From an uncultured bacterium (GTDB lineage: Bacteria > Verrucomicrobiota > Verrucomicrobiia > Verrucomicrobiales > Akkermansiaceae): a DNA stretch of 56,655 nucleotides. Made by a program: the position numbers and the translations under genes. Position 1 is the first letter of the stretch, and the number at the start of each line of letters is the position of its first letter. Positions 7,644 to 31,096 of this stretch are shown one piece after another. The stretch is from contig CAMEZO010000004.1 in NCBI GenBank assembly GCA_945947905.1, positions 1 to 56,655 on the forward strand, written 5' to 3'. The notes beneath the pieces were generated by a model. That model searched no databases, had not been told where the DNA came from, and saw only the letters and a list, made by a program, of their open reading frames with translations.

Positions 7644-9398
7644 ATGACGATACCGTCCATACTGAGCGAGCAATTGGCGGCGGCACTCAAGGGTGTATTG
7701 GGTGCCGACCTACCGGAGAGTTTTACACCGAGTGTCACGGCATCCCAGGACCTGCGCTTCGGGGATTACCAGAGCAATGCGGCCATGGTGCTGGCCAAGC
7801 AAGCCCGCAAAAACCCGCGCGAGCTGGCCGGCAAGGTGGTTGAGGCCTTGAGCGAAACCGCTGTGGCGACTGCTGAAATCGCGGGGCCGGGCTTCATCAA
7901 TTTCCGCATCAAGCCGAGCTACTATGCCGAGCGCGCGGAGAGCATGCTGACGGATGAGCGTCTGGGGGTGCCGATGGCGGCGCAGCCCAAGTCACTGGTC
8001 ATCGACTTCTCTGCCCCGAATGTGGCGAAGCCGATGCACGTAGGCCACATTCGCTCGACCATCATCGGTGACACGCTGGGGCGGCTGGCTCGCTTCATGG
8101 GGCACAAGGTCATCACGGATAATCACATCGGCGACTGGGGGACGCAATTCGGTATGATCCTCTGGGGCTGGAAGAACATCCTGAAGCAGGAGGACTTGGA
8201 GAGCGACCCGATTGAGGCCCTGCTCTCGGTATACAAGGAGGTGAACGCTCGCTGCAAACAGGACCCTGCCCTACTGCCCGTCTGCAAGGAAGAGCTCGTG
8301 AAGCTGCAGAGCGGCGACAGCGAGAACCTGGAGATTTGGAAGAAGTGCATCGCCGTGACGAAGGTGGGGCTGGAGAAGATCTACGACCAACTCGACATCA
8401 AGTTTGATTACTGGCTGGGCGAGAGTGCCTACAATGATGCCCTCGGTCCGTTGGTGGAGGATCTGCTGGCCAAAGGAATTGCCCGCGAAAGCGAAGGTGC
8501 GGTCTGCATCTTCTCCGATGGCTTCCACAAGCCGCAGAACGATCCCTTCCTGGTGCAGCGCGACGGAAGCTGGGTGCCCGTGCCCGCCATCATCCGCAAG
8601 GCGGACGGCGGTTTCCTCTACGCAACCACCGACCTAGCGACGCTGGATTACCGCATCGCGAACTTCCATGCCGACTCCATTTGGTATGTGGTGGGTGCGC
8701 CGCAGGATAAACACTTCAAGCAGATCTTCGACATCGAGCGCATGCGCGGCGTGACCGGTGACTTCCGCCACGTGGCGTTCGGCTCCATCCTCGGGAAAGA
8801 TCGCCGGCCTTTCAAGACACGTTCCGGGGATACGGTCAGCCTGCAGGATGTCATTGACGAGGCCGTGTCTCGCGCGGCCAAGGTCATCGAGGAGAAGAAC
8901 CCGAGTCTGCCCGAGGAGGAAAAGGCGCACATCTCGAAGGCGGTCGGTATCGGTGCCATCAAATTCGCGGAGCTTTCCCAGAACCGTCTCAGCGACTACA
9001 TCTTCGACTGGGATAAGATGCTCTCCCTCTCCGGGGACACCGCGCCTTACCTCCAGAACAGCTATGTGCGCGTGCGTTCGATCTTCCGCAAGGTCGAGTC
9101 GAATGAGACGCAGGGCGCGAAGGTGCAACTGACCGAGGACGCGGAAATTCACCTCGCGCGTATGCTGGTGCGCTACTCCGAAACCGTGCCCGCTACGCTG
9201 GATGACTGCCGCCCGAACATTCTGGCCGCTTACCTCTACGACCTGGCACGCGCCTTCCACAGCTTCTACGAAGCCTGCCCGGTTCTTCGCAGCGAGGGTG
9301 AGGTGCGCAGCAGCCGTCTGATTCTTTGCGAGCTTACCGCCCGTGTGTTGAAACAGGGTATGGGCTTGCTCGGTATTGAAATGGTCGAGCGTATGTAA
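7644..9398 (+). CDS. argS: arginyl-tRNA synthetase
   Basis: A 584-residue class I synthetase that charges tRNA-Arg. The N-terminal Add-1 domain is about residues 5-95. The HIGH signature appears as MHVGHIRS (His132 to His135), preceded by DFSAPNVAKP, which is characteristic of ArgRS. KMSK is replaced by GKDRRPFKTRSG, normal for many ArgRS. The C-terminal DALR anticodon-binding domain ends VERM, as usual. Length is typical. It is monocistronic behind a near-perfect promoter, and the ATG lies about 3 nt from the predicted transcription start. Confidence 0.97.
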   Translation: MTIPSILSEQLAAALKGVLGADLPESFTPSVTASQDLRFGDYQSNAAMVLAKQARKNPRELAGKVVEALSETAVATAEIAGPGFINFRIKPSYYAERAESMLTDERLGVPMAAQPKSLVIDFSAPNVAKPMHVGHIRSTIIGDTLGRLARFMGHKVITDNHIGDWGTQFGMILWGWKNILKQEDLESDPIEALLSVYKEVNARCKQDPALLPVCKEELVKLQSGDSENLEIWKKCIAVTKVGLEKIYDQLDIKFDYWLGESAYNDALGPLVEDLLAKGIARESEGAVCIFSDGFHKPQNDPFLVQRDGSWVPVPAIIRKADGGFLYATTDLATLDYRIANFHADSIWYVVGAPQDKHFKQIFDIERMRGVTGDFRHVAFGSILGKDRRPFKTRSGDTVSLQDVIDEAVSRAAKVIEEKNPSLPEEEKAHISKAVGIGAIKFAELSQNRLSDYIFDWDKMLSLSGDTAPYLQNSYVRVRSIFRKVESNETQGAKVQLTEDAEIHLARMLVRYSETVPATLDDCRPNILAAYLYDLARAFHSFYEACPVLRSEGEVRSSRLILCELTARVLKQGMGLLGIEMVERM

Positions 9399-12793: not shown

Positions 12794-13605
12794 GGTGGCG
12801 TTGGTTCATCTACGGCTTGCTGCTGATCGCGGTGCTTCTGTATGCGTGGTGGGAGCGCGAGGACATCGAGGAGACGCATGCGCATGTGCCTTGTCCGGAG
12901 TGGCAGGGTAGGGGGGTATGCTTGGCTTTGCTCGCGGACCTGCATGCCCGCCCGGGGGATGGGGACTACATGGATGAAATCGTGCGACGGGTGTTGGCGG
13001 CCAAGCCGGATGCCGTTCTGCTGGCGGGGGACTACTTCAACGGGCACAGTGCGGAGTCGAGTATGTCGGCTGCCGAGTTGGAGGAACATCTGCGGCCGCT
13101 GACGTCTTTGCCCTGCGTGGCGGTGCTGGGAAATCACGATTACTACTACGGCGAGGACGAGGCGCGCGCCATGTTTGCCCGGCTCGGCATCCCCTTGGCG
13201 GAGGGCAAGCGCATCCCGATTCGCCCGGGCGGCACGGAGCTGGATGTGGCCGGGGTGCGCTGCATGTACACCTTCCCCACCCCCGGTCCCATTGCGGAGA
13301 AACGCCCCGACACGCCGCTCCTCTTCCTGAGCCACACCCCCTACGGCACCCTCTTCGCCCCGCCCGGTTCCTTCTTGGCCGTCTGCGGACACACCCACGG
13401 CGGCCAACTCTGCCTGCCCGGCGGCAAGGCCATCAAGCTCCCGGACTCCATCACCCCGCCCGTCCTCACCCGCGGCCTCCACCGCTACAAAGACCTGCTC
13501 ATTTACACCACCCGCGGCCTCGGCACCAGCATCCTCCCCCTCCGCACCTTCTGCCGCCCGGAGATTACTTTCCTGCATGTTGGGCGGACTTCCTCGGGAA
13601 AATAG
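12790..13605 (+). CDS. YkuE-like membrane-anchored metallophosphoesterase
   Basis: A 271-residue protein with one N-terminal helix (about 5-21) and a calcineurin-type phosphoesterase domain. Metal-binding motifs in order: ADLHARPGD, AGDYFNGH, GNHDYYYG, SHTPYG and CGHTHGGQ. YkuE-type enzymes act at the membrane surface, and lipid A or phospholipid pyrophosphate substrates are known among relatives (LpxH, LpxG); the substrate here is not determined. The ATG overlaps the ribD stop (ATGA), although no shared pathway is evident. Confidence 0.88.
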   Translation: MRWRWFIYGLLLIAVLLYAWWEREDIEETHAHVPCPEWQGRGVCLALLADLHARPGDGDYMDEIVRRVLAAKPDAVLLAGDYFNGHSAESSMSAAELEEHLRPLTSLPCVAVLGNHDYYYGEDEARAMFARLGIPLAEGKRIPIRPGGTELDVAGVRCMYTFPTPGPIAEKRPDTPLLFLSHTPYGTLFAPPGSFLAVCGHTHGGQLCLPGGKAIKLPDSITPPVLTRGLHRYKDLLIYTTRGLGTSILPLRTFCRPEITFLHVGRTSSGK

Positions 13606-13634
13606 TTGCATTTCTCCCCGGTATGTGGTATAAG
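13606..13634 (+). promoter_or_regulatory. promoter of the HpaII-type system, with CCGG in its spacer
   Basis: TTGCAT (13606-13611), 17-bp spacer, TATAAG (13629-13634). CCGG, the expected target of the encoded enzymes, occurs once in the spacer at 13618-13621. It overlaps the last codon region of the phosphoesterase gene. Confidence 0.7.
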
Positions 13635-13656
13635 AATGCAGCATTCTTCTCGCACC

Positions 13657-14808
13657 ATGAAACCGAACGACATTGTATGCGGGCTTCCCGGGGAGCTCGT
13701 CAGAAAACGTGGAACCCGGGATTCCGCTCCTGTTTCCCCGGTCGGCGGGATGGTGTGTGATTTGTTTTCGCGGGTGCATAGGGTTTCCGAGGCGGGTAAA
13801 ATCCGTATGATTGATCTCTTTGCCGGGATCGGCGGAATCCGTATGGGGTTTGACCGGGCTTTCGGTGACAGCGCCGAGACTGTTTTTGTTTCGGAGTGGG
13901 ATGCAGCGGCCCAAAAGACTTATTCGGCAAATTTTCCGGATTCACTGACCATCAACGGAGATATTACCAAGATCTCGGAAGAAGATATTCCGGGATTTGA
14001 TATTTGTTTGGCCGGTTTCCCTTGTCAGGCATTCAGTCTTGCCGGGCAGAGAAGGGGGTTTGACGATGATTACAAGGGGATGTCCCGGGGAACACTGTTC
14101 TTTGATGTGGCACGCATTTGCGCGCGGCATAAACCCAAAGTCATTTTCTGTGAAAACGTCAAGGGTCTTACCATTCATGACAAGGGAAAAACTTTTGCCG
14201 TCATTCGGGGTACCCTCGAGCAGATAGGATATAAGGTGTTTGCAAAGGTTTTGAATTCCAAGGACTTCGGCGTGCCTCAGAATCGAGAGCGCATCTACAT
14301 CGTTGCGTTCAGAAAGGACATTGCACCCGATCGATTTGATTTTCCCTCACCCGTACCGGGAAAAGTCAGCCTGCGTGATATTTTGGAGGAGAAGCCGGTT
14401 CCGTCGAAGTATTACCTCAGTACTCAATATCTCGCGACCCTGATTCGCCATAAGGAACGGCATGCCGCAAAGGGTAACGGTTTCGGATACGAAATCCGTG
14501 AACTGGACGGAATTGCCGGTGCCATTGTTTGCGGGGGAATGGGGCGTGAGCGGAATCTTATCATTGATCCCCGACAAACGGATTTGACTCCGAGTACACA
14601 TATCAAGGGAGAGGTCAACCGGGAAGGTATCCGCAAGATGACACCGAGAGAATGGGCGCGTTTGCAGGGATTCCCGGATTCCTATAAGCTGGTCCTTTCC
14701 GATGTCCATTTGTACAAGCAGTTCGGAAACAGTGTAACGGTTCCTGTCATTCGTGCTATTGCGGAAAAGATCAAGGCAGTCTTGGATGATGTATCGGGTA
14801 ATATATGA
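13657..14808 (+). CDS. M.HpaII-like DNA (cytosine-5) methyltransferase
   Basis: About 383 residues. All C5-methyltransferase motifs are present in order: motif I IDLFAGIGG, motif IV FPCQAFSLAG with the catalytic cysteine, motif VI FCENVKGL, motif VIII QNRERIYIV, motif IX MTPREWARLQGFPDSY and motif X KQFGNSVTVP. The recognition region (KYYLSTQYLATLIRHKERH, then GNGFGYEI) is very close to M.HpaII as I remember it, so the target is probably CCGG with the inner or outer C methylated to protect against the next gene product. ATG at 13657 lies just after the predicted transcription start; the start at 13606 is inside the promoter. Codon use is more AT-rich than in the flanking genes, a sign of transfer. 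Confidence 0.93.
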   Translation: MKPNDIVCGLPGELVRKRGTRDSAPVSPVGGMVCDLFSRVHRVSEAGKIRMIDLFAGIGGIRMGFDRAFGDSAETVFVSEWDAAAQKTYSANFPDSLTINGDITKISEEDIPGFDICLAGFPCQAFSLAGQRRGFDDDYKGMSRGTLFFDVARICARHKPKVIFCENVKGLTIHDKGKTFAVIRGTLEQIGYKVFAKVLNSKDFGVPQNRERIYIVAFRKDIAPDRFDFPSPVPGKVSLRDILEEKPVPSKYYLSTQYLATLIRHKERHAAKGNGFGYEIRELDGIAGAIVCGGMGRERNLIIDPRQTDLTPSTHIKGEVNREGIRKMTPREWARLQGFPDSYKLVLSDVHLYKQFGNSVTVPVIRAIAEKIKAVLDDVSGNI

Positions 14809-15965
14809 AAGAACAATCTGATTCCAAACCGATTACGGGAAACAGGGGCGAATGGAGCGAGCTGTACGCTTTTTTCCGTTTGATGGGTGATCATCGTTTG
14901 TTTCCGTGTGATGCAGATCTGAATGAGAAACACGATTATGCGCCGGATATCGTGGAGATACATCGGGGGGCGGATGAGAAGCTTGTTTATCGGTATACCG
15001 GGGATGGTAGGTGGGAGATTTATACTTCCGGAGAAAAGAAGGGTACGGTTTCGTCAGTGGAGAGTGCTTCCGAGGCTGACCGGCTTTTGGCCTGTATTCA
15101 GTCCGGAGATTGCGTAGGCAGTTTTTCTGTTGAGGGGGCATTGAAATTTCTGGAACGACTGGCGGATGATAAAATTAAAGCAAAATCCGGTGATAAACAG
15201 GATATTGTATTGAAGGTTCAGGACCTTCGTGCCGGCGGTGTCCCCGTGAAGTGCGGATTCAGCATCAAATCCTATCTCGGATCCGCTCCGACTCTTCAGA
15301 ATGCGAGTGCGGATTGTACGAATATTCTGTATACAGTCAGAGGTATTTCCGTTGAGAAAGCAAGACTCATCAATGATGAGTGTGACAAATTTCCGAGAAA
15401 ACGCATCAAGAAATTGATGTCTCTTTTGAAGGAGCACGGGGCCTCGATTGAATTCGAAAAAATCTGCCATCGTAATTTCGAGAGTAATTTGATTGTTGTC
15501 GCTGACAGTATGCCGAAATTACTCGGCGAACTGCTTCTTGTGCATTATCTCAGCGGGGAAAGCAGTGTCAGGGAGGTGACGGAGATGACGGCAGCTCGAA
15601 ACCCTCTTCAATACCCGCAGGGTAAATCTCTTTATGAGCGGCGCGTCAAGAAACTGTTGGAGGCATTTGCCTTGGGAATGACACCGGCGGGAGATTGGAG
15701 GGGTGAGGAGAATGCCAATGGCGGATTCATTGTTGTACGTTGGGACGGCAAACTCTTGACGTATCATCTGTTCGACAGAACGGAGCTGGATGAGTATCTT
15801 TACCGCTATACAAAATTTGATCATCCTTCTTCCGGTAAGCATAGGTACGGTCGCCTCTTGGTCAATGAAGCGGACGGAAGCATCAGCCTCAAACTTGCAT
15901 TGCAGATAAGATTCATTACGCCGCGCAAAGATGGACAACCACACAGCCGAACAAAGACATCGTAA
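14805..15965 (+). CDS. HpaII-family type II restriction endonuclease
   Basis: A 386-residue protein overlapping the methyltransferase gene by 4 nt (ATGA). The N-terminus GNRGEWSELYAFFRLMG matches the HpaII endonuclease family start, which cleaves CCGG. SGDKQDIVLKVQDLRAG near residue 135 contains the D and K expected of a nuclease core; I infer rather than prove catalysis. Together with the neighbours it forms a complete modification, restriction and repair cassette. The low GC matches the methyltransferase gene and contrasts with ribD upstream. Confidence 0.88.
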   Translation: MKEQSDSKPITGNRGEWSELYAFFRLMGDHRLFPCDADLNEKHDYAPDIVEIHRGADEKLVYRYTGDGRWEIYTSGEKKGTVSSVESASEADRLLACIQSGDCVGSFSVEGALKFLERLADDKIKAKSGDKQDIVLKVQDLRAGGVPVKCGFSIKSYLGSAPTLQNASADCTNILYTVRGISVEKARLINDECDKFPRKRIKKLMSLLKEHGASIEFEKICHRNFESNLIVVADSMPKLLGELLLVHYLSGESSVREVTEMTAARNPLQYPQGKSLYERRVKKLLEAFALGMTPAGDWRGEENANGGFIVVRWDGKLLTYHLFDRTELDEYLYRYTKFDHPSSGKHRYGRLLVNEADGSISLKLALQIRFITPRKDGQPHSRTKTS

Positions 15966-16359
15966 CATGTCGGCCGTCAGGTCTCGGGATACGAAACCGG
16001 AATTGCTGTTGCGCAGGAAATTGCATGGCTGTGGTTTTCGTTTCCGCCTTTGCGGCAGGGATTTGCCCGGAAAACCGGATATTATTTTGCCGAAATACAA
16101 ATCCGTTATATTTGTTCACGGATGCTTTTGGCACCGCCACCCGGGCTGCAGATACGCGAGTACACCCGAAACGAATCGGGAATTTTGGGAGAAGAAGTTC
16201 GCTGAGAATACGGGGCGTGACCGTCGACAACGGGAGTTACTCGAAAATATGGGGTGGAATGTCATTGTGATCTGGACCTGCGAGATCAGGGAGTTGGTGG
16301 AGGATGAAAATTTCGCCGACAGAATCAGGCTTCTTCTTTCCGGAGGCGGAAGGGACTGA
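15931..16359 (+). CDS. Vsr very-short-patch-repair endonuclease
   Basis: A 142-residue mismatch endonuclease that nicks 5' of the T in T:G mismatches arising when 5-methylcytosine deaminates. Conserved segments: RSRDTKPELLLRRKLH near residue 17, LPGKPDIILP with the metal-binding aspartate, VHGCFWHRHPGC with the zinc ligands and catalytic histidine, and WNVIVIWTCEI. It overlaps the restriction gene by 35 nt in another frame. Its presence beside a C5 methyltransferase is the usual arrangement. Confidence 0.93.
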   Translation: MDNHTAEQRHRNMSAVRSRDTKPELLLRRKLHGCGFRFRLCGRDLPGKPDIILPKYKSVIFVHGCFWHRHPGCRYASTPETNREFWEKKFAENTGRDRRQRELLENMGWNVIVIWTCEIRELVEDENFADRIRLLLSGGGRD

Positions 16360-16397
16360 TATATTTCCCGAATTTTCCCCCTGCGGCAAAATAAGTC

Positions 16398-16425
16398 TTG
16401 CCATTGCGGTGGATTGTGCGATAAT
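16398..16425 (+). promoter_or_regulatory. promoter of the MFS/acyltransferase fusion gene
   Basis: TTGCCA (16398-16403), 16-bp spacer, GATAAT (16420-16425); ATG at 16437. Confidence 0.5.
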
Positions 16426-16436
16426 GTGGGCATACT

Positions 16437-19142
16437 ATGGCAGAAACAGACGAAACGAGCGCGCCGACGGCAGGGGAGCCGTGTCCTCCCGTTCCTTTTG
16501 AGGGGGGGGAGGATGAGATGCACTACAAGGAGCCCAGCCGGAAGGAGTGGCGGGGGTTCTGGACGCTGGTGGCGGTTCAGGCGCAGAACGCCTTCAATGA
16601 GAAGGCGGTGCAGTTCCTGCTGATTCCGCTGGGGGTGTGGCTGTGGGGCGCCTCCGGCAGTACGCTGGAGTATACGCTGGGTGCCATTTTCGTGCTGCCG
16701 TATATTCTCTTCTCCCCGCTCGTGGGGTGGCTGGCGGACTGCTTCTGCAAGACGCGGATCATCCAGGTGATGAGCCTGGCGCAGATTGTGGTGATGAGCT
16801 GCATGCTCTTCTGCTTTTACCAGCATGATATGACGGCAGCGATTCTGTGGTTTGCGGTATTTGCTACGCAGGCTACTATTCTAAGTCCGGCAAAGAAGGG
16901 CATTGTGAAGGATCTGCTGGGCTCCAAGTACATCGGTTTCGGATCCGGTATTGTCGAGATGAGCATGGTCGGCGTGCTTCTGATTGCTCAGATCGGTGTC
17001 TTCTTCTGGTTTAGCTATTTGTTGGATGTGTACAACGAGCTGCCCGATGCCGTGGAGGAGGCAGGATGGAGCGCGGTGAAGCTGCCGACCTGGGTGTTCC
17101 TGATTTTGGCGGGCATTGTTTCCGCGGCGTCTTTCCTTGTTCCCCGTTACCCCGCCAAGCAGCCGCGTCCCTTCAGTTGGAGCCTTTTCTACGAGCATTT
17201 CGTGCAGGTCAAATACCTCTGGAAGGACCGTCTGCTGCGCCTCAGTGAGCTGGGTATCTCCTATTTCTGGTGCCTCGCCGGTTCCCTTTTCCTGATTATC
17301 ATCCAGATTGCTAAACAACTCCAGGAGGCGGATCCCGAGTGTGATTTCAGTTTGCAGTGCGGCATTCTGATGGCTTGGCTGACGGGCGGTGTGCTGACGG
17401 GCGGTGCCATTGCCTCGCAACTCTGCAAGGGCAAGAACGAGCTGGGCCTCATTCCTTTCGGTGCCATCGGTATTACGGTTTGCACGTTCATGCTGGTATG
17501 CTTGGATGTCAATACCTACATGAGTAACATTTTCCTGGCCTTTACGGGAGCCTTCGGTGCAGCCTATTTGGTACCGCTCAATGCCTTCCTCCAGGACCAC
17601 TGCGACCCCGCTAACCGTGGCAACATCATCGCGGCCGGCAACCTCATCGACAATGTGATGGGCTTGGTAGCCGTGGGGCTCATGTGGATGATGCATGAGT
17701 ACGGCGCGAGTCCGCAGAATCAGTTTTTCGTGCTCTTCCTTCTCAGCGTGTTTATCATGGTTACCTCCCTGCGTCTTATCCCGCAGGAGTTCATCCGCAT
17801 GGTGGGCATATGGTGCATGCGTTTGGTGTACCGTCCGCGCACGCTGAACCCGGAGTACCTGCCGGAGCGCGGGGGGGCGCTCTTGGTCGCAAACCATGTT
17901 ACCTATGCCGATGCGCTCTTCATCACGATGGTCTGCCCGCGTCCCGTGCGCTTTGTGGTGGCGGAGGAGTTCATGGCTTCGCGTCTCATCAGCTGGGTGT
18001 TAGAGATTTTCAATGCGCTTCCCATTTCCTCTAAAAACCCCCGCGAGGCCATCAGCAATGCCGCGGAAGGTCTCGCGAACGGCGAGCTGATCTGTGTGTT
18101 TCCGGAGGGGCAGTTGACCCGCAGCGGCTGCCTCATCCCCATCCGCCGGGGTATCGAGCAGATTGCGCGTCGGGCGCAGGTACCCATCATCCCGCTCTAC
18201 ATGGATGGCCTGTGGGGCAGCGTCTTTTCGTTCTCCCGCAGCCGTTTCTTCGCCAAGATGCCCAAGAGCGTTCCCTATTCGTTCACGGTGGCCGTCGGGC
18301 GTCCCATTTCGCCGGCGTCCTTTGATGCCGAGGGGATCGTGCGCACTTTCCGCAGCCTGGCTGCGGATTGCCTGGAGGTGTCGGACGGTGGTAGCCGAGA
18401 GGCGTTGCTGTTGTTGTTGGAGCGCATGGGTAACAAGCCACTCGTGCATTGCAGCGGGGGTACGCTGTCCGGTATTCAGATTGCGGCAGCCCTGATTGCC
18501 CGCCAGCCTTCCCCCAAGAGTCCGGCAGAGGCTATCCCGTGGCTCAAGACTTTGATAGCAGGTACGGAGAACATTATTTCCCTGCACCGCAGTTGGCTGA
18601 ATGCCTGCCAAATCCGCCGTACGAATACGCTCAAGGAGGGCCATCATATGCTCACTACGGTCGGCCACGGGGAGTCGCATGAGTTCGTCCTCGGTGTGCT
18701 CTGGCCCATCCTGACGCAGACGCCGGTGCATATCATCACGGATGACTCGCGCAGCATCGATCCCTGCATTTCGCAGATGGTGGGTGGGGCGCACATGCGT
18801 TCCCTGCTCATCAAGGTCTTCCCGCCGCGCCAGATTCCTTTCTTCGATTTCAGCTTGGGCCCGGACCTCGCTGCACCGAATATGCGCTGGCGTCCCTGCA
18901 TGGCCACCTCCGCCGGTACCGTGCTGTCCATGAGCATGCGCAGCAGCGTTTTCAAGATGTCCGACGGCACGGTGCAGCTCGGGGCCCGTCCGCGTACGCG
19001 CGGCCTGTTGATCCCCTGCTTCTGTGTGGATAAGAGCTCGGACGGCACGACCGTTATCACGGGACAAAGCCTGGCAAAACCCTACACTCTTCCGGAGAAG
19101 TACTACGTAGACGAAAGCGGTTTCTTAGGCGAGTTCTCCTGA
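16437..19142 (+). CDS. LplT-like MFS transporter fused to PlsC acyltransferase and a partial Aas-like synthetase domain
   Basis: A 901-residue fusion. Residues about 40-455 are a 12-helix MFS transporter resembling LplT, the lysophospholipid flippase. About 465-640 is a PlsC 1-acylglycerol-3-phosphate acyltransferase domain with NHVTYAD (HX4D motif) and FPEGQLTRSG. The remaining 230 residues (HCSGGTLSGIQIAAALIARQ, later GHGESHEFVLGVLWPIL) resemble the AMP-forming acyl-ACP synthetase part of Aas but are far shorter than the roughly 500 residues expected, and the usual ATP-binding and C-terminal motifs are not seen. The protein probably imports and re-acylates lysophospholipids; the last domain may be degenerate. 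The C-terminus lies 15 nt before the left end of the island repeat. Confidence 0.85.
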   Translation: MAETDETSAPTAGEPCPPVPFEGGEDEMHYKEPSRKEWRGFWTLVAVQAQNAFNEKAVQFLLIPLGVWLWGASGSTLEYTLGAIFVLPYILFSPLVGWLADCFCKTRIIQVMSLAQIVVMSCMLFCFYQHDMTAAILWFAVFATQATILSPAKKGIVKDLLGSKYIGFGSGIVEMSMVGVLLIAQIGVFFWFSYLLDVYNELPDAVEEAGWSAVKLPTWVFLILAGIVSAASFLVPRYPAKQPRPFSWSLFYEHFVQVKYLWKDRLLRLSELGISYFWCLAGSLFLIIIQIAKQLQEADPECDFSLQCGILMAWLTGGVLTGGAIASQLCKGKNELGLIPFGAIGITVCTFMLVCLDVNTYMSNIFLAFTGAFGAAYLVPLNAFLQDHCDPANRGNIIAAGNLIDNVMGLVAVGLMWMMHEYGASPQNQFFVLFLLSVFIMVTSLRLIPQEFIRMVGIWCMRLVYRPRTLNPEYLPERGGALLVANHVTYADALFITMVCPRPVRFVVAEEFMASRLISWVLEIFNALPISSKNPREAISNAAEGLANGELICVFPEGQLTRSGCLIPIRRGIEQIARRAQVPIIPLYMDGLWGSVFSFSRSRFFAKMPKSVPYSFTVAVGRPISPASFDAEGIVRTFRSLAADCLEVSDGGSREALLLLLERMGNKPLVHCSGGTLSGIQIAAALIARQPSPKSPAEAIPWLKTLIAGTENIISLHRSWLNACQIRRTNTLKEGHHMLTTVGHGESHEFVLGVLWPILTQTPVHIITDDSRSIDPCISQMVGGAHMRSLLIKVFPPRQIPFFDFSLGPDLAAPNMRWRPCMATSAGTVLSMSMRSSVFKMSDGTVQLGARPRTRGLLIPCFCVDKSSDGTTVITGQSLAKPYTLPEKYYVDESGFLGEFS

Positions 19143-19156
19143 TATCGAGGGGAGCC

Positions 19157-19446
19157 TGACCGCGGAATAAAGGGAATTTTCGGAGAGTTCGGGGCATACT
19201 TAGCTCGGCACAGACTGCATGCCGCCGGGGTAGTAGGTAACTGAAGTTTTCAGAACGCAGAATTTCAGGAAGGTTTCGGAAACTGATCGGCATACTTAGC
19301 TCGGTTCAGACTGCATGCCGGCGGGATAGTAGTTCCCTTGATTGTTTGATAAAATTCTAAAGCTACCTATCGTGAACATGCTCCGACGTCTTGCCTGAGA
19401 GCAGCATGATATACAGTCTCCGAAAATTCCTTTTATTCCGCGGTCA
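19157..19446. repeat. 290-bp element with 30-bp inverted ends; left boundary of the Cascade island
   Basis: The left end (19157-19186, starting TGACCGCGGAATAAAGGGAA) is the inverted complement of the right end (19417-19446) at 29 of 30 positions. Inside are two 44-bp direct repeats, 19193-19236 and 19289-19332, 40 of 44 identical and 96 bp apart (GGCATACTTAGCTCGG, two variable bases, CAGACTGCATGCCG). The arms look loosely related further inward, so the whole element is an imperfect palindrome. The right half recurs, diverged, at 26232-26360 on the far side of the cas operon and recombinase. Confidence 0.85.
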
Positions 19447-19451
19447 TTCTC

Positions 19452-19464
19452 CACTCGCTCTCTA
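19452..19464. repeat. 13-bp repeat flanking the cas operon, copy 1
   Basis: CACTCGCTCTCTA, downstream of cas5e; identical to 25008-25020 upstream of the first operon gene, in the same orientation. Confidence 0.6.
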
Positions 19465-19487
19465 TAACCCCCGTGCTGTGAAGTCTC

Positions 19488-20177
19488 TCATTCCGTGAGC
19501 AGTGCAGTGATAGCAGCGGGGTCCGTGATGCGGCGCAGGGGGCGGTAATCGCAGGCGCGCCCTGCGCGGCCGGAGTTGCCGGGCAGGCCGAAGGAAAGCG
19601 GGCGGTCCCGGAGCAGTAGGTCGGCGGCCTCCGTGTTATCCGGCTGCCACCACAGCTCGCGGATGCGGCGGGGGCCGTGCAGCAGCAGGCGGTGTGCCTC
19701 GGCGGCGGGCATCACCGGCTTACGCACCGGAGGCTCGGCGGGGATGCAGCATTTGCGCCCCAGCCAGATGCCGCGCCGCGGGTTGCGCAGGACCTCGGCG
19801 GCGTGGCACAGGAAATCCCGGTCCGTCGACTCGAGCAGCACGCAGTAGCGCTCATCCTGCCGGTAGAAACGCCGCGTGACCACCGTGGGCAGGGGCGAAC
19901 CGTTCACGGCGCGGGTGCCGAGGACAGTGTGAAAATCGCAGAGCGGGGCGCGTGACGGGGCGTCGCCCAGGGCCACACTGTGCATGCGCGCCGCGCGGAA
20001 CCCGGCGATGATACGTGCCTCCTCGTCGCTCCCCTTGTCGGCCCCGGCGGCGGCGCATACCATGCCGCAGACCGCGCTCAGTGACGGCGCGACCCCGGCC
20101 CCGCGTTCCTGAAACAGGCTGTCCGTTCCCCAGGCCTGCAGCGGGGCTGCGAAGTGCAGCAACAGGGCGTGCATCAT
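19488..20177 (-). CDS. cas5e: type I-E CRISPR protein Cas5e (CasD)
   Basis: A 229-residue RAMP protein. The N-terminus HALLLHFAAPLQAWGTDSLFQERG matches the Cas5e pattern (lllrLeaPlqsWG), and PSLSAVCGMVCAA is the following conserved helix. In Cascade, Cas5e holds the 5' handle of the crRNA and contacts Cas8e. The C-terminal part includes RRFYRQDERYCVLLES. It overlaps Cas7e by 4 nt (ATGA) and is the last gene of the six-gene operon. Length is normal (224 in E. coli). No cas1 or cas2 follows; the next DNA is the 290-bp element. Confidence 0.93.
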   Translation of the reverse strand: MMHALLLHFAAPLQAWGTDSLFQERGAGVAPSLSAVCGMVCAAAGADKGSDEEARIIAGFRAARMHSVALGDAPSRAPLCDFHTVLGTRAVNGSPLPTVVTRRFYRQDERYCVLLESTDRDFLCHAAEVLRNPRRGIWLGRKCCIPAEPPVRKPVMPAAEAHRLLLHGPRRIRELWWQPDNTEAADLLLRDRPLSFGLPGNSGRAGRACDYRPLRRITDPAAITALLTE

Positions 20178-21220
20178 GGGGCGAGCGGGGCAATCAGGGA
20201 CTCCGTGAATTCATCGGCGCACTTATCAGGTAACTCGACTGTTACCTCAGCCTTCAGGTTCCAGGTATGCTGCATCTGCCGGAAGAAGCTCCGCAGGCGT
20301 TCGCGGCTCGGTGCGGCATAGCCTCCCTCCGGCAGCACGGGGTCCTCGAAGGCGGCGGCCAGCTGCAGGGGGCAGCCGCTCCGTCGGTGCAGGCCCAGGG
20401 CGTAGTCGGGCAGGCAGGAGGCGCACATCGACCCGCGCCGGGCCGACGGTGCCGCGCGCAGGGCGGAGTCAACGAAGGCGCGGAGCAGCAGGCGCAGGGT
20501 CTCCGCATCCGGCTGTCCCAGGTTTTCGCGCAGCAGGTCCACGTTCAGCCCCACATAGCGATAGTAGCAGGCGGAGTGGAACTCAAGCATGCCGCCGCCC
20601 GCGCCCGCGGATAACAAGTCATCCGCCGTCGTGAAGTAATCTAACTCCGGCTCGCAGAGGTGGGTGGATATGGCATGGGTATACATCGCGGCGGCCTCGG
20701 TGGAGAGCTCGGGGTCGGAGGTAACCATGCGCCCGAAGAGCGCGATATCAGCCGCATCGCTCATCAAGTGCCCGCGCGGCAGGGCCTCCGCAGCAGCCTT
20801 GGCCAGCTCGGCCGGAGTGGCCTTTGGTTTCTCCTCGCGCCGGGCCAGGGCGGTCTGTACCATCAGCTGCGCCTCGGCGGGGGAGAAGTAGACGGGAGCG
20901 GCGGCGGCGGGTTCGCTTTTGCGGGCATCCACCTTGCACCAAATGCCCGCCAGGGCCGCGGCGAGGGCCTCTGCGCCGGCGGCTCCGCGGGCTTGCAGCA
21001 GGCCCAGCAGGTAGCCGGGCAGCAGGCGGGTGCGTATGCCGCAGCCGTGCTGCGGGGCCAGCTCGCGGAAGAGGCGGCGCTGGCTGCGTTTCATGCACTG
21101 GGAGGAGATGCGGGCGCGGCGCACGCCGCCGTAGTAGGCGCTTTTCGCCGCCCCTAGGTCGTCGCGGTTCGGACAGCAGACGGGGTAACTTTGCAACAGG
21201 TGCAGTTCGAGGAGTTCCAT
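20174..21220 (-). CDS. cas7e: type I-E CRISPR protein Cas7e (CasC/Cse4), Cascade backbone
   Basis: A 348-residue protein. The N-terminus ELHLLQSYPVCCPNRDD, then GAAKSAYYGGVRRARISSQC and MKRSQRR, is the classical Cas7e signature (hxLQsxPxxxxNRDdxGxxKxaxxGGxxRxRiSSQ). Six copies normally coat the crRNA spacer. The C-terminal half contains MCASCLPDYALGLHRR. The start at 21220 (ATG) is chosen over the open frame upstream, which overlaps Cas6e and encodes a non-homologous arginine/proline-rich extension. It lies 2 nt after the cas6e stop and overlaps cas5e by 4 nt. Confidence 0.95.
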   Translation of the reverse strand: MELLELHLLQSYPVCCPNRDDLGAAKSAYYGGVRRARISSQCMKRSQRRLFRELAPQHGCGIRTRLLPGYLLGLLQARGAAGAEALAAALAGIWCKVDARKSEPAAAAPVYFSPAEAQLMVQTALARREEKPKATPAELAKAAAEALPRGHLMSDAADIALFGRMVTSDPELSTEAAAMYTHAISTHLCEPELDYFTTADDLLSAGAGGGMLEFHSACYYRYVGLNVDLLRENLGQPDAETLRLLLRAFVDSALRAAPSARRGSMCASCLPDYALGLHRRSGCPLQLAAAFEDPVLPEGGYAAPSRERLRSFFRQMQHTWNLKAEVTVELPDKCADEFTESLIAPLAP

Positions 21221-21222
21221 TG

Positions 21223-21822
21223 TTATGAAATCGGGGAGAGAGGAAGGAGGAGCATGAGGCCGAAGCCGAAGCTCTTGGCGCTGCCGAACCCGTGCTCCCG
21301 GGCGCGGCGGAAGGTCTCGGGGTCGCGCACGCTTAGGCTGCCGCAGAATTGCACGGAGTGGTGCAGGGCCGGGGCGCAGCCGGGTTTGCAGAAGGGAAGG
21401 GGGGCCTCCGGGACGGCGCGGACATCCTCCCCGGGCAGGAAGCCGCCCTGCTCGCCCTTGCGCCGCAGCCAGCGGAGGAGCTCGTCGTCGCCGGTCAGGG
21501 GCAGGCGGCGTCCGTGGGGCTCGGGGCTGCGTTTGGTGGGGTTGGCGCGCAGGCAGAAGCGGTAGTCGCGGGCCCGGTGAAAGTCGGGGGGTATGGGCGC
21601 GCAGCACAGCCTGTCCTGCGGTAAATCGGCGGGGCACAGCGGCGGCAGCGGGGAGAGCATGCAGAGGCGCGCGCCGCCGGGGGCGTAGTCCGCGCGGTAC
21701 AGAAAGCGCCGTTTCCCCATGCCGGGGAAGAAGCGCCACACCAGGCGGTGCAGGGCATAGGCGTCCCGGGGCAGGAGGCGGGAGGCTTCGGCCTCATGCA
21801 GCATGTATGTTGACAGATACAC
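21223..21822 (-). CDS. cas6e: type I-E CRISPR endoribonuclease Cas6e (CasE/Cse3)
   Basis: A 199-residue crRNA-processing RNase. The start is assigned to GTG at 21822 because it gives the normal N-terminus (VYLSTYMLHEAEA) and has AAAGGAG 7 nt upstream; ATG at 21852 is the alternative. RDAYALHRLVWRFFPG matches the Cas6e helix carrying the catalytic histidine, and the C-terminal FGSAKSFGFGLMLLLPL is the glycine-rich RAMP loop and last strand. It overlaps the Cas8e-Cse2 gene by 29 nt. Its presence between Cse2 and Cas7e differs from the E. coli order, where it follows Cas5e. A processing RNase implies that an array exists somewhere, but none is seen here. Confidence 0.92.
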   Translation of the reverse strand: MYLSTYMLHEAEASRLLPRDAYALHRLVWRFFPGMGKRRFLYRADYAPGGARLCMLSPLPPLCPADLPQDRLCCAPIPPDFHRARDYRFCLRANPTKRSPEPHGRRLPLTGDDELLRWLRRKGEQGGFLPGEDVRAVPEAPLPFCKPGCAPALHHSVQFCGSLSVRDPETFRRAREHGFGSAKSFGFGLMLLLPLSPIS

Positions 21823-23596
21823 GGGGGCACTCCTTTCCGGTGCGGGATGCATCGCAAAGCTCGATGTAGAGCTCGCGGTAGTTGACGGGGATGATGCTGT
21901 GCCGCAGGGCGGTGATGAGCGCGGGCATCTGCGCGGCCAAGCCTGCGGGTCCGGAGGCGGCGAGCTGCCGCAGGCGGGCTGCCGTCTGCGCGGGGTGACT
22001 GCGCCCGGCAAGGGCCAAGCGGCGATAGGTAGCGGAGGGGCCGTAGCCGGGGCGCTCGGTGTGGTAGGGGTGCAGGGCAAAGAGGGCGGCGACCAGCTCG
22101 GCGGCGGAGTCCCCCGCGCCGCAGTCGTGCAGCAGACGCAGCCCGGGCTTGCGGCCCGTGCGGTCGAGCAGGGTGCGCAGGGCCGCGAGCTGTTGCGGGT
22201 CGCGGCGCAGGCGGAGCAGGTGGGCCACCAAGGCGGCGGGATCCGTGGGGTAGGGGGACGTGGCCGGCGTAGCTGCCGGAGAGACGAGTGCCTCGGGTAG
22301 CAGGCGGGCGGCCTGTCGGGCAGCACATCGGGCGCGGGGGCCGGCGTGCGGGCAGACGCACGATAAGGCTCGGTGAGAGCAGAGGGTCAGGGTGTCTTGA
22401 ACTTCTTCCCGGTCGGCGCGGAGGAGGTCGGGCAGGGCGTGTTGCACCTCGCTGCGGAAGCGCAGGGCGGCTTCCCGGCGCAGGGCGGCCGCGCGTCGGG
22501 GCTCGGCGCAGACGTCCTCGGCGTAGCGTTCGGCGGCCTCGGCGGTTCGGGCCTCGAGGGCATCGGCGGCGGTGGTCAGGGTGCGGAGGCTCTCCGCTGC
22601 CGCCTCGGGAGGTACCCCGGCGGGCAGGGGCAGGCGCAGTTCTCGCGTGCCGAGCACCTTGGCGCGGTCTGTCATCAGGCAACCCATCCACAGCGCGGTG
22701 CCGGGGGGAAGCTCCTGCCCGCTCAGGCTCGCAAGGGCAGCGGGGGCGCAGCGCCACAGGGGCAGATGCGGCGCGGTGCCGATGGGCCTGCCGTCGGCCG
22801 TGACCATGCTCGGTTCGGGGGACGGCTCGCTGCCGTAGTCCAAGCCGCGGGCCAGGATGCAGCGGTCGCCCGCCAAACGCACCGCGCGGCAGAGGGGAAC
22901 CAGGCGTCCGCACAGCGTGCCGGTGGCATTCAGCAGGGCGGCGCTGTCCCGGGGGCTTTGCGGTATCTGCTCCCACACGGGTCGGCCGAGGGGCAGGGGG
23001 CTTTGCCGCAGGGTGCGCAGGCTCAGGAGGAGGGTGTCGCGCAGGTTGCGGCCGAGCAGCAGGGCGTGCAGGGCGCTCCCCGCAGCGCAGGGACCGGCGG
23101 GGCAGACATCCGGTGTCTTCCGTGCCGTGGGTTCCCCGGCCCACAGGGCGGTGCCGATGGTGCCGCAGGGGGCAAAGTTCTGCAGGGTAAGCAGGTGCAG
23201 AGCCGCTTGCGCGGGGCTTACCTGCGTCCGCGCGGCGTCGTTCTCGAAGAGGCTGCTCGAGTTGCCCGCCGTCCCCGCCGGGGCCAGCTTGCGCAGCTCC
23301 ACCCGTGCCTCGCCTTCCAGCCCCGGCAGTTGCAGAAAGGCCCCGCCGGCTCCCTCCGCATACAGCTCAAACGCTCCTTCCCACTCCCGCAGATACGCCG
23401 CCGCGCTCTCAATCCCTCCCGCCGCCAGCGTGATACATTGCAGCAGCCGCATGAGCGCAATGCGCTCATGCGGCTGCACGGCCAAATCCCGAATCTCTTC
23501 AGCCTTCGCAAAAATCTCTCCCAAGCCCTGCAACCTCACGTCCCCGCGTGGCCCCATACAGGGTATCCACGCGTCCTTCGCCAAGTTGCAGAGCAT
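21794..23596 (-). CDS. Cas8e-Cse2 fusion: Cascade large and small subunits in one chain
   Basis: A 600-residue protein. Residues 1 to about 455 are Cas8e (CasA/Cse1): the start NLAKDAWIPC fits the NLLxxPWIPV pattern, then LGEIFAKAEEIRDLA, ALMRLLQCITLAAGG, SPAQAALHLLTLQNFAPCG, and the C-terminal helical bundle near 330-440. After a Pro/Ala/Ser linker (about 447-465) comes a Cse2/Cas11 domain of about 140 residues: PTDPAALVAHLLRLR, AELVAALFALHPYHTE (the hallmark AALFALHPxHTE), AARLRQLAAS, IPVNYRELYIELCD. E. coli encodes these as two genes of 502 and 160 residues. It begins 12 nt after the upstream lipoprotein gene. The fusion would force a fixed ratio of the large and small subunits or need internal translation to supply extra Cse2. 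Confidence 0.92.
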   Translation of the reverse strand: MLCNLAKDAWIPCMGPRGDVRLQGLGEIFAKAEEIRDLAVQPHERIALMRLLQCITLAAGGIESAAAYLREWEGAFELYAEGAGGAFLQLPGLEGEARVELRKLAPAGTAGNSSSLFENDAARTQVSPAQAALHLLTLQNFAPCGTIGTALWAGEPTARKTPDVCPAGPCAAGSALHALLLGRNLRDTLLLSLRTLRQSPLPLGRPVWEQIPQSPRDSAALLNATGTLCGRLVPLCRAVRLAGDRCILARGLDYGSEPSPEPSMVTADGRPIGTAPHLPLWRCAPAALASLSGQELPPGTALWMGCLMTDRAKVLGTRELRLPLPAGVPPEAAAESLRTLTTAADALEARTAEAAERYAEDVCAEPRRAAALRREAALRFRSEVQHALPDLLRADREEVQDTLTLCSHRALSCVCPHAGPRARCAARQAARLLPEALVSPAATPATSPYPTDPAALVAHLLRLRRDPQQLAALRTLLDRTGRKPGLRLLHDCGAGDSAAELVAALFALHPYHTERPGYGPSATYRRLALAGRSHPAQTAARLRQLAASGPAGLAAQMPALITALRHSIIPVNYRELYIELCDASRTGKECPRVSVNIHAA

Positions 23597-23608
23597 GGGC
23601 GGTGAATG

Positions 23609-24304
23609 TTACTTGGGATCCACTCTGACGTAGGTGGCGCGCATCTCCATGGCGTTAGCATGTTGTATGGGATTTTGCTCTATCTGAGCATCCCCATCAC
23701 CATTTACGCCGTCATGATCGTGACCGTCTTCACCATCCGGAGTAACCTCCGCACAATCGTAAAAATAGAGGATAATATTTCCTTCTTCGATGTGCTTCTT
23801 TCCTTCGGATGCGTCACCGGAATATGTCAATGTTGATCCCTGTGTCGGGAAAGCCACTCGGACTTCATTACCATAGCCCATGCCGCTGAGCTCTTGTGTA
23901 CCCACTGTATTACTACCTCGAAGGGCTTCTAAACTGTCGGCAGTGAGTGCTTGGTTCAGAACCCTGAAGGTGTGTTGACCGTTGGTAACGGTTTCCTCGA
24001 ATACACAGGGATTCAGAAAGTTTCGGTGGTCCCCGGCTGCATAAACAGTCGCGTATACGGATGCAGATGTGGATTTATTTCCGGCTATGTATGCGTCCTC
24101 GTAGCGGAAGGTCGCAATCAACTGGTTGCCGGAGTAGAAGCGCACGATTCCACCGGTAGGAGATCCAAAGAGGAAATCCGGATTATAATCCGAAACGCTT
24201 TGCGAGGGAGCAGCACTGCTTCCGCCCCCGCCACCACCACCGCATGAGGCAATGGTACCGGTAAGAGCCAAGGAAAGACAGAGCAGGAAAAGATTCGTTT
24301 TCAT
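23609..24304 (-). CDS. glycine-rich lipoprotein 2, cotranscribed with Cascade
   Basis: A 231-residue protein: MKTNLFLLCLSLALTG signal, lipobox IASC near residue 21, then seven glycines and a Ser/Ala/Pro linker typical of a surface lipoprotein tether. The mature part (DYNPDFLFGSPTGGIVRFYSG, YEDAYIAGNKSTSASVYATVYAAGDHRN) looks beta-rich; the acidic histidine/glycine-rich stretch DGEDGHDHDGVNGDGD near residue 200 could bind a divalent metal. I recognise no family. It lies 13 nt after lipoprotein 1 and 12 nt before the Cas8e-Cse2 gene, so it is in the same operon. Base composition is lower in GC than the cas genes, so the operon is composite. Confidence 0.75.
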   Translation of the reverse strand: MKTNLFLLCLSLALTGTIASCGGGGGGGSSAAPSQSVSDYNPDFLFGSPTGGIVRFYSGNQLIATFRYEDAYIAGNKSTSASVYATVYAAGDHRNFLNPCVFEETVTNGQHTFRVLNQALTADSLEALRGSNTVGTQELSGMGYGNEVRVAFPTQGSTLTYSGDASEGKKHIEEGNIILYFYDCAEVTPDGEDGHDHDGVNGDGDAQIEQNPIQHANAMEMRATYVRVDPK

Positions 24305-24317
24305 GGTAGAGCTTTAG

Positions 24318-24959
24318 TTATTGTCTTACAATGACAAATTGACGAGAGTTGTATTCACGATGAATTTCCTCCCCCTGATTATAGGAGTAAATCTGATATC
24401 CGCATTGCATGTAATTGAAGTCGAAGGTAAGTCGGCTGATGGTCAGCAATGTATCACCGGTACTGGTACCACCCATACGACCACCTAATGCTAATAAAAT
24501 CGCGAAAGTGGCATGTGCATCGTCACCTACCCAGTAGCGATTTTCATTTCCTTCTTCCGGAACGGTCGGATTGAAATCATCCTCCCCTCCTATGATTTCG
24601 CTCCCGCCTTGGTCGGTGATATTGAGAAGTCCGCATCGAGTCGACGGATTGTAACGATAGTAGACGAGTACGGGCATAGCCTCTCCGTCATTGATGGATA
24701 CATAGGCATTGATCATCTCGCCGCCTTTGTCAATCTCTCCGGATTCCCAACCTTGGAGTCTATTGTCTCCGCCCGGGGGAGCGTATAACTTTACCTTGGA
24801 ACCACCTCCCATGATGATGAGAGCCTTGCGTCCTGAGAGTAAGTCATAGTTGGTGACGATGCCGTTTTCTGTTTCGTTCCCTCCACCGCCGCCGCAGGCG
24901 CTGAAGGTGAACACAACGGCGACCGCTGCGAGGAAGAGTGAGAGTAATCTTGTCTTCAT
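24318..24959 (-). CDS. glycine-rich lipoprotein 1, first gene of the Cascade operon
   Basis: A 213-residue protein: MKTRLLSLFLAAVAVV signal, lipobox FSAC near residue 21, followed by GGGGG. The mature part is beta-rich by eye (YDLLSGRKALIIMGGGSKVKLYAPPGG, MPVLVYYRYNPSTRCGLLNI, DTLLTISRLTFDFNYMQCGYQIYSY). It shares the leader style and glycine tether with the next gene, and both have a similar length, suggesting a related pair, but the mature sequences are not clearly alike. The ATG at 24959 is preferred over the in-frame start at 25010. The function is unknown. Position at the head of the operon means it is transcribed whenever Cascade is. Confidence 0.72.
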   Translation of the reverse strand: MKTRLLSLFLAAVAVVFTFSACGGGGGNETENGIVTNYDLLSGRKALIIMGGGSKVKLYAPPGGDNRLQGWESGEIDKGGEMINAYVSINDGEAMPVLVYYRYNPSTRCGLLNITDQGGSEIIGGEDDFNPTVPEEGNENRYWVGDDAHATFAILLALGGRMGGTSTGDTLLTISRLTFDFNYMQCGYQIYSYNQGEEIHREYNSRQFVIVRQ

Positions 24960-25213
24960 GATGATGTGAGTGTGGATATGAAAAGGAGGAAGCAGGTACC
25001 GGGTCGGCACTCGCTCTCTACAGGAGGTAGTCTACATCTTTTTGTAAGATGAATGCGTCATCTTTTCACGCAATCCCTTGGCAGTCAAGGCTTTAGACAG
25101 TCCTTCATCTGACCGCAGTTCATTTTTTCGTAGACAAGGGAACAAAAAAATGCCAGAATTCTACACAGAAAACGCACTTTATGCTTGCATCATCTTACAA
25201 AAACCTGAAGACC
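24960..25213. promoter_or_regulatory. divergent control region between the Cascade operon and the recombinase
   Basis: A near-identical motif points outward on each side: CATCTTACAAAAA on the plus strand at 25191-25203 (toward the recombinase) and on the minus strand at 25051-25039 (toward the lipoprotein/cas operon). Each is preceded by a GCAT element. TTACAA may be the -10 in both; no good -35 is found at 17 bp, so activation or another sigma factor is possible. The 13-bp repeat CACTCGCTCTCTA lies at 25008-25020. Confidence 0.5.
25008..25020. repeat. 13-bp repeat flanking the cas operon, copy 2
   Basis: CACTCGCTCTCTA, in the leader of the operon; identical to 19452-19464 beyond the operon end. 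Confidence 0.6.
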
Positions 25214-26188
25214 ATGAACAACGGAAAAATCCTCAAAGGGCTGGAATTGAGCCGCACGGACGCGGAGCGGCTTGTCGCGGAATGCGCGGAAGAAATCGGC
25301 GGCGCGGGCATGCCGCGGGCGGAGCTGATGGGCCGCATACGGAGCGTCCTGCGCCTGGGGGCGGAGGCCATGCGCGCACGGGAGCGGACGGTGAGTGTGC
25401 GCGAGGCCGCAGAAGCCGCCTTGGCCGCTCGGCAGGGACTGCGCCCCGTCACCATGCGGGACCTGCGCTACTACACCCGGCGTCTCTGCGCGGACGCGGC
25501 GCTGGCGGAGCGTCCCCTGCGCGCCGTCCGTGCCCCGGAATGCCGCGCCTATCTGGAGCGCACCTACGGCCACAGCCGCAGCGCGTACCGCAAGGCCCGC
25601 AGCGTGCTGCACACCGTCTTTGCCTACGGCTACCGACACGAGTGGTGCGACTCCAACCCCGTGGACCGCGTAGAAGTACCCAAGGTACAGGAACAGGAGA
25701 TACGCCCGCTGAGCTTGGCCGAGGCCGAGCGCCTGCTGAGCGTCGCCCGGCGTCCGGAGCACGCGGCCATGCGCCTCTCGCTGCATCTCATGCTCTTCTG
25801 CGGCATCCGCCCCACGGAGGTGCAGCGCCTCAACCCGCAAACGGACATCGACCGACAGGGGCGCCGCGTCCTCATCCGCCCGCAAAGCAGCAAAACCGGC
25901 GGCGGCCGCGCCGTCCCGCTGCGCGCGGGCACCCACCTGCTCCCCCTCTGCATCCCGCGCAACTGGAACCGCCGCTGGCAAGCCCTCCGCCGCGCCGCCG
26001 GCTTCTCCCACTGGGTCCCGGACGTCCTGCGGCACACCTTCGCCACCTACCACGCCTGCACCTTCCGGAACCTCCCCGCCCTCCAGTGCGAGATGGGCCA
26101 CAGCAGCACCGCCCTCCTCCGCACCCGCTACGTCAACACCACCGCCATCGCCCCCCGCGACGCCCGCCGCTTCTGGGCCACAAAGTAA
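25214..26188 (+). CDS. tyrosine-type site-specific recombinase (integrase)
   Basis: A 324-residue phage-integrase-family enzyme. The N-terminal SAM-like core-binding domain is about residues 60-145 (VSVREAAEAALAARQGL, TYGHSRSAYRKARSVLHTVFAYG). The catalytic domain shows CGIRPTEVQRL (first arginine), SSKTGGGRAVPL (lysine), DVLRHTFATYH (second arginine; the preceding histidine of the HxxR box is replaced by aspartate), MGHSST (second histidine) and RTRYVNT (nucleophilic tyrosine). The form LRHTFATYH...MGHSST is, as I recall, common in Verrucomicrobiota integrases. It is transcribed away from the Cascade operon and ends 43 nt before the right island repeat, the usual place for an integrase next to its att site. 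The start at 25214 is preferred over 25181. Confidence 0.9.
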   Translation: MNNGKILKGLELSRTDAERLVAECAEEIGGAGMPRAELMGRIRSVLRLGAEAMRARERTVSVREAAEAALAARQGLRPVTMRDLRYYTRRLCADAALAERPLRAVRAPECRAYLERTYGHSRSAYRKARSVLHTVFAYGYRHEWCDSNPVDRVEVPKVQEQEIRPLSLAEAERLLSVARRPEHAAMRLSLHLMLFCGIRPTEVQRLNPQTDIDRQGRRVLIRPQSSKTGGGRAVPLRAGTHLLPLCIPRNWNRRWQALRRAAGFSHWVPDVLRHTFATYHACTFRNLPALQCEMGHSSTALLRTRYVNTTAIAPRDARRFWATK

Positions 26189-26231
26189 TGCCCCCTCCCT
26201 CTACTATAAAGAATGCCCCACCGCCCCCGCG

Positions 26232-30821
<4,590 letters not shown>

Positions 30822-30842
30822 GCCCCCTGCATCAACCCTCCC

Positions 30843-30873
30843 CGCCCCCGTTGCACTCCCCGCAGCGGGGGCG
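30843..30873 (+). terminator. lacZ terminator
   Basis: Stem CGCCCCCG (30843-30850) / CGGGGGCG (30866-30873), followed by TTCTC rather than a long T-run. Confidence 0.6.
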
Positions 30874-31096
30874 TTCTCATACCCGGCCGAAAAGGGTTGA
30901 CATACGCCCCGAAACGTGCGACGTGGATACTGTAGCAATACCGCCCTTTCTCCCAAAGGGGGGACATTACGCCGCAACCCCTGTAAGATATTTTACAGGT
31001 CTGTGATTATTATGCTCCTCATTCCCCGCAAGGAGTCAACCACATGCTCCGACGCGAGCGGTGAAATACCTATATGTACCACCCATGTGTGGAGTC
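30874..31096. other. 223-nt intergenic region with a small palindrome
   Basis: No convincing gene. It contains TTGACA at 30897 without a partner -10 at 17 bp, and a palindrome CTGTAA (30981-30986) / TTACAG (30993-30998). CATGCTCCGACG near 31042 also occurs inside the 290-bp element near 19378; at 12 bp this may be chance. Confidence 0.4.

Follow-up and report, generated by a model that had tools for sequence, protein, structure and literature searches.

A Cas8e-Cse2 fusion in a type I-E Cascade operon without adjoining cas3, cas1, cas2 or CRISPR array in a gut Akkermansiaceae genome

The type I-E Cascade is reported to contain one Cas8e and two Cse2 subunits (PMC11899642), and canonically Cse2 is encoded by a gene of its own. 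In an uncultured gut bacterium of the Akkermansiaceae, represented by a single MAG that is 97% complete, one long reading frame appears to contain both proteins. It lies within a stretch of 56,655 nucleotides (contig CAMEZO010000004.1), which is the whole of the DNA analysed here and is referred to as the window. Is this reading frame a genuine fusion of the large and the small Cascade subunit? If it is, does the complex carry one Cse2 rather than two, or is free Cse2 also made from a start within the fused gene? And what might such a complex do? No report of a natural Cas8e-Cse2 fusion was found in the titles, abstract openings and passages of the open-licence PMC literature; two apparent hits proved to be strings that give gene order. 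Here we investigate the fusion, the operon to which it belongs and the DNA that surrounds it.

The fused reading frame and its two halves

The fusion gene (21794..23596, minus strand) has an ATG start and encodes 600 aa in a frame that is open throughout. Pfam Cse1 (PF09481) matches residues 4-395 (4.7e-34, above the gathering score) and Pfam Cse2 (PF09485) matches residues 496-584 (5.9e-7, 30.5 bits with a gathering score of 24.6). PADLOC likewise assigns residues 4-400 to Cas8e (2.7e-39) and 469-586 to Cas11e (7.2e-8), while the NCBIfam Cse1 model TIGR02547 scores 34.9 bits, below its cut-off of 70.05. In the predicted model of the whole fusion, T. fusca Cse1 is matched by residues 1-439 (Z 31.8, rmsd 3.0, 425 aligned), and both the N-terminal domain and the C-terminal helical bundle of Cas8e are present. 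In this model pLDDT is low at 439-451, and the Cse2 half came out at low confidence. A separate prediction of that half, made with 48 other Cse2 rows, reached a mean pLDDT of 86. T. fusca Cse2 aligns with the result at Z 16.6 (rmsd 2.5, 148 aligned), compared with Z 3.5 for the best non-Cse2 row; the Foldseek E-values for this half are modest, the best being 3.3e-3. The 600-residue ORF is a genuine Cas8e-Cse2 fusion. An earlier note on this DNA had read it as the large and small subunits in one protein, and Pfam, PADLOC and the folds of both halves bear this out, including, by structure comparison, the identity of the C-terminal domain as Cse2.

The boundaries given in that note, with Cas8e in residues 1-455 and Cse2 in the last 140, can be refined. 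The Cas8e half covers approximately residues 1-437 (22286..23596, minus strand), as judged from PF09481, an alignment with 12 relatives and the fold, and the Cse2/Cas11e half approximately residues 454-600 (21797..22237, minus strand), as judged from PF09485, the fold of this half alone and alignments. Between them are residues 438-453, approximately (22238..22285, minus strand). A stretch rich in proline and alanine does join the two halves, as had been described, but it is not a special linker. In the alignment with the 12 relatives the Cas8e half reaches the usual Cas8e end, and the P/A-rich stretch is a tail that is also found on the relatives' Cas8e, here continuing without a stop. The conserved W-A..[FY]W tail at the C-terminus of the relatives' Cse2 is replaced or missing in the fusion.

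Both cas8e and cse2 were found in 89 other loci, being apart in 88 and fused in one. In 35 of the 88 unfused loci, 4 nt are shared by the two genes and cse2 is in a different frame. The fusion therefore required a frame shift, and it may have originated through loss of the reading-frame break at this usual overlap. Past codon 425 the other two frames of the gene stay open for 244 codons or more, so that a single indel would be unable to restore two ordinary genes. In addition, the fusion frame encodes the conserved motif at the C-terminus of Cas8e, and the G+C content by codon position maintains its frame-0 style across the junction.

An operon without its usual ends

The operon has the gene order fusion, cas6e, cas7e, cas5e, all on the minus strand. 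The cas6e gene (21223..21822; TIGR01907, 98.6 bits, cut-off 45.2) has a GTG start behind AGGA and shares its first 29 nt with the 3' end of the fusion. It is followed by cas7e (20174..21220; TIGR01869, 227.6 bits, cut-off 178.05) and cas5e (19488..20177; TIGR01868, 94.9 bits, cut-off 68.95), which overlap by 4 nt. All five subunit families of the type I-E Cascade are therefore represented by profile. The operon resembles the known system in this, in the folds of both fusion halves and in its grouping with Akkermansia I-E loci; it differs from it in having Cas8e and Cse2 as one chain. Two lipoprotein-like genes without Pfam matches precede it on the same strand. The first (23609..24304) ends 12 nt before the start of the fusion and, given so short a gap, is probably co-transcribed with it. 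The second (24318..24959, with MKT in the listed ORF taken as its start) is separated from the first by 13 nt.

No cas3, cas1 or cas2 is present at the locus in the list of ORFs, cas2 being judged from ORFs of at least 100 aa, and there is no CRISPR array in the window. The earlier note had passed over these absences, and also over the recombinase and inverted repeats upstream of the operon that are described below. Within the family the fusion has matches in 13 of 195 genomes, its own included, and within the genus Cas7e has matches in 6 of 76. In all 12 of the other genomes with a cas8e match, cas3 adjoins cas8e and a Cas1 match follows, although in G184 the cas3-to-cas1 locus is split over two contigs. 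The order in these relatives is cas3-cas8e-cse2-cas6e-cas7e-cas5e-cas1, which the window operon preserves minus both ends. Repeats with a period of 61 nt are present in the retrieved stretches of 11 of the 12 relatives, there being none in the stretch from G085.

In the same genome, at its 97% completeness, the only cas3 over the cut-off is the Cas3c of a type I-C system, and its two Cas1 genes are the Cas1c of that system and one located behind Cas9. No I-E-type array was found in this 97%-complete genome by a search that a diverged repeat would escape. The family's repeat stem has no exact match there and four matches with one mismatch, which are on four different contigs; no cluster is seen among the places listed across the genome, up to 100 of them for two mismatches. 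In a study of human-associated Akkermansia, types I-C and II-C are reported (PMC8278651). Type I-E variants without adaptation genes have been described in Streptomyces, at loci with tnsB and tnsC (PMC12231136). These share the absence of cas1 and cas2 with the window operon, yet in the passages describing them cas3 and the array are kept, whereas the window locus has neither.

Is the operon still intact, or is it decaying? It groups within the I-E clade of Akkermansia (support 1.0, n=7). Near-invariant residues have been changed at 3 of 49 positions in Cas7e, none of 15 in Cas6e, 1 of 20 in Cas5e, 2 of 11 in Cas8e and 2 of 5 in Cse2. In gene trees made with FastTree and free topology, the window has the longest tip for Cse2 (1.99, compared with 0.39-0.83 in the clade), Cas5 (1.14; 0.54-0.76), Cas7 (0.97; 0.46-0.72) and Cas6 (1.01; 0.59-0.95). 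For Cas8 its tip of 1.33 is inside the range of 0.97-1.47 and is not the longest. We read these rates as those of an operon that is intact but under weakened constraint, Cse2 most of all.

The same data are open to a harsher reading, which has a substantial though smaller chance of being the right one. The locus may be a relic, a former type I-E system that lost cas3, cas1, cas2 and its array, in which the fusion was a step of decay and the operon is now inert. This would account for the missing genes and for the absence of an I-E array from the genome search, and it is favoured by a Cse2 half that has evolved more than twice as fast as that of any Akkermansia relative and has lost its C-terminal tail, by the longest tip in four of the five gene trees, and by the lack of a good promoter before the operon in either orientation of the segment between the inverted repeats. 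Against it, four long ORFs remain open and tightly overlapping, Cas6e retains all of its near-invariant residues, and on the concatenated tree the tip of the window is only slightly longer than the others (1.06, compared with 0.67-0.96 in the clade). If the fusion does not assemble, the locus would be a snapshot of the decay of a CRISPR effector after the loss of nuclease and memory.

A proposed single Cse2 per complex

Our preferred reading, to which we give a probability of about one half, is that the genuine fusion belongs to an intact four-protein Cascade operon without cas3, cas1, cas2 or array, and that this operon gives a single-Cse2 complex that binds DNA and does not degrade it. As one polypeptide, the fusion would tether one Cse2 covalently to the belly of the Cas5e-Cas7e-Cas6e-crRNA complex, in place of the usual two free subunits. 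Lacking Cas3, this complex would, if given crRNA from elsewhere, bind and block DNA with no degradation. Assembly, the 1:1 stoichiometry, DNA binding and the source of the crRNA are what we infer here. In favour are the recognition of both halves by profile and fold, the conservation of the partners and the stop-free alternative frames at the junction. On the other side, no source of crRNA was found, and the Cse2 half has evolved faster than any other in the clade and is missing its tail; after such fast evolution and the loss of the tail it could be that this half no longer binds. It is reported that the E. coli Cascade without Cas11 retains gene silencing, with weaker plasmid interference (PMC12235044), which makes a single Cse2 per complex plausible.

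The earlier note had left a choice between one Cse2 per complex and an internal start that yields free Cse2. The sequence predicts the 1:1 product, and in the window the internal start is unsupported. All in-frame starts at codons 401-500 of the fusion were listed with their upstream pairing energy, and these are only TTG456 and GTG457, neither with a Shine-Dalgarno sequence. This is weak evidence, since a Shine-Dalgarno sequence is equally lacking before the fusion itself, cas7e and cas5e, three of the four operon genes. Taken with the fused chain, the lack of a good internal start points to one Cse2 per complex.

Profiles were scanned against the window and 96 type I-E loci (80 + 13 + 3), at least six of which are the same contig counted twice; the 80 are the best 80 of 551 relatives, and further fusions may exist. 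Two ORFs are matched by both the Cas8e and the Cse2 profile, that of the window and one in a Mailhella MAG (L230, CALUPQ010000143.1, 3409-5415, 668 aa). The Mailhella locus is complete, with Cas3e, cas6e, cas7e, cas5e, Cas1- and Cas2-like ORFs (both identified by eye) and an array, unlike that of the window. A fused Cas8e-Cse2 can thus be part of a full type I-E locus. The two loci are distant on the four-protein tree (3.34 substitutions per site), so the fusions are separate events, and a similar fusion within a complete locus of a distant lineage shows that the step is repeatable. Each of the five plasmid relatives of the Mailhella fusion matches in two pieces.

The Mailhella gene also differs from that of the window in having an ATG at codon 491 behind GGGAGG (-10.3 kcal/mol), and there an internal start is supported by the sequence. 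Might free Cse2 be produced in the same way from the window, so that two Cse2 per complex are retained, as with Cas11 of types I-B, I-C and I-D? In those types too the large and small subunits share one reading frame, and free Cas11 is reported to come from an internal start in it (PMC11899642, PMC12235044). Despite this precedent and that of Mailhella, we think it improbable for the window, where the sole starts near the junction are the two poor ones.

It is less probable still that the complex borrows the Cas3 of the type I-C system in the same genome, in which case DNA would still be destroyed. That system has an intact-looking Cas3c, Cas8c and Cas1c and an array with a 32-nt repeat, but its Cas3c belongs to another subtype. 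A sequencing or assembly error we regard as the least probable of all, for although the fusion is known here from one MAG, a single indel could not yield two ordinary genes, the Cas8e motif sits in the fusion frame, and a second fusion is found in an unrelated MAG, albeit one in which the case against a single-indel error is weaker.

Should the single-Cse2 complex assemble, the number of Cse2 would be fixed, and the locus would be a natural test of whether two, one or none are needed and of whether Cse2 serves mainly in the hand-over of DNA to Cas3. A compact four-gene Cascade free of Cas3 would also be, if this is true, a ready DNA-binding tool.

Across the phylum, Cse2 has matches in 28 of 387 genomes, and in a single frame with Cas8e only in that of the window. 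The Cse2 match of G520 had been considered as another fusion on account of its frame length; it is joined to a different N-terminal domain, and Cas8e is a separate ORF. At L240 (7605-9230) a Cse2 is found between cas8e and cas6e, in frame behind an unrelated N-terminal domain that we take to be RhuM-like. Both sister genomes contain weak Cse2 matches below the cut-off in frames of 140 aa (G000, C65:9855-10169; G071, C40:8239-8541). The fusion was not found in the wider genome contigs, viral contigs and plasmids searched, and an alignment of Cas7e gave no match among the viral contigs.

The recombinase, the inverted repeats and the genomic surroundings

Across an inverted repeat, the operon faces a tyrosine recombinase gene (25214..26188, plus strand; PF00589, 4.2e-13; ORF listed from 25181) that has paralogs in the same genome. 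The arms of this exact 14-nt repeat are at 25039..25052 (plus) and 25190..25203 (minus), the latter 10 nt before the ATG of the recombinase. No other such pair with a spacing of 100-200 nt occurs in the window, and none of 300 shuffles reached a repeat of this kind. The 137-nt segment between the arms (25053..25189) may be invertible. Invertons are known in Akkermansia (PMC13343947, PMC11892184), and the window resembles them in that a short intergenic segment is bounded by inverted repeats, here with a tyrosine recombinase alongside. The reported inverton controls a capsule locus (PMC13343947), whereas inversion of the window segment in silico forms no promoter towards the Cascade operon (7/12, reached by 920 of 1000 shuffles).

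Two of the paralogs have similar arrangements. In the first (L048, contig C38, approximately 653-917), exact 20-nt arms 138 nt apart lie between the recombinase and hsdM/S/R, and inversion gives TTGACA-17-TAGAAT, a near-consensus 11/12 promoter towards the restriction genes (0 of 1000 shuffles); this is likely a phase-variable type I restriction system. In the second (L049, contig C50, approximately 8300-8480), imperfect 16-nt arms 131 nt apart (7 of 300 shuffles) lie between the recombinase and an HKD-Snf2 gene, PtuA/PtuB are behind the recombinase, and inversion again gives an 11/12 promoter, towards the defence genes (0 of 1000 shuffles). No inverted repeat was found at a third paralog. Because inversion creates a promoter at the first two loci and none in the window, a switch is likely at those two and only possible for the Cascade operon. 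An extended form of the single-Cse2 reading, with a switchable and non-cutting Cascade, is accordingly a speculative one that we think has little chance of being right. The complex, encoded in an accessory region, would be flipped on by the recombinase in part of the population and act as an RNA-guided repressor with guides from another locus, Cse2 having been tethered as no hand-over to Cas3 is required.

The accessory region has its left breakpoint at a copy of an intergenic dispersed repeat (19146..19457). The 340-nt stretch at 19131-19470 had been considered as the attachment repeat of a mobile element, but its 113 matches in its own genome, often at the ends of contigs, identify it as a dispersed repeat, one with inverted ends. 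A 13-nt direct repeat that flanks the operon (19452 and 25008) was also rejected as an attachment site; it is absent from 11 other loci with one mismatch allowed, and we estimate that it is within chance for 7 kb. A search of 15000-31000 against Rfam gave one chance match only. Collinearity with the sister genome G071 stops at 19155, and no counterpart to 19156-26364 of the window was found within the 64 kb of that genome's contig that the comparison covered. A clean insertion beside conserved neighbours is too simple an account of this, as in G071 approximately 25 kb separate the left neighbour from the right one, on a single contig where they are arranged differently. Elsewhere in the window, at 13579-16371, are genes for a methylase, a restriction enzyme and Vsr that are absent at the collinear place in G071, which is closed to approximately 10 bp.
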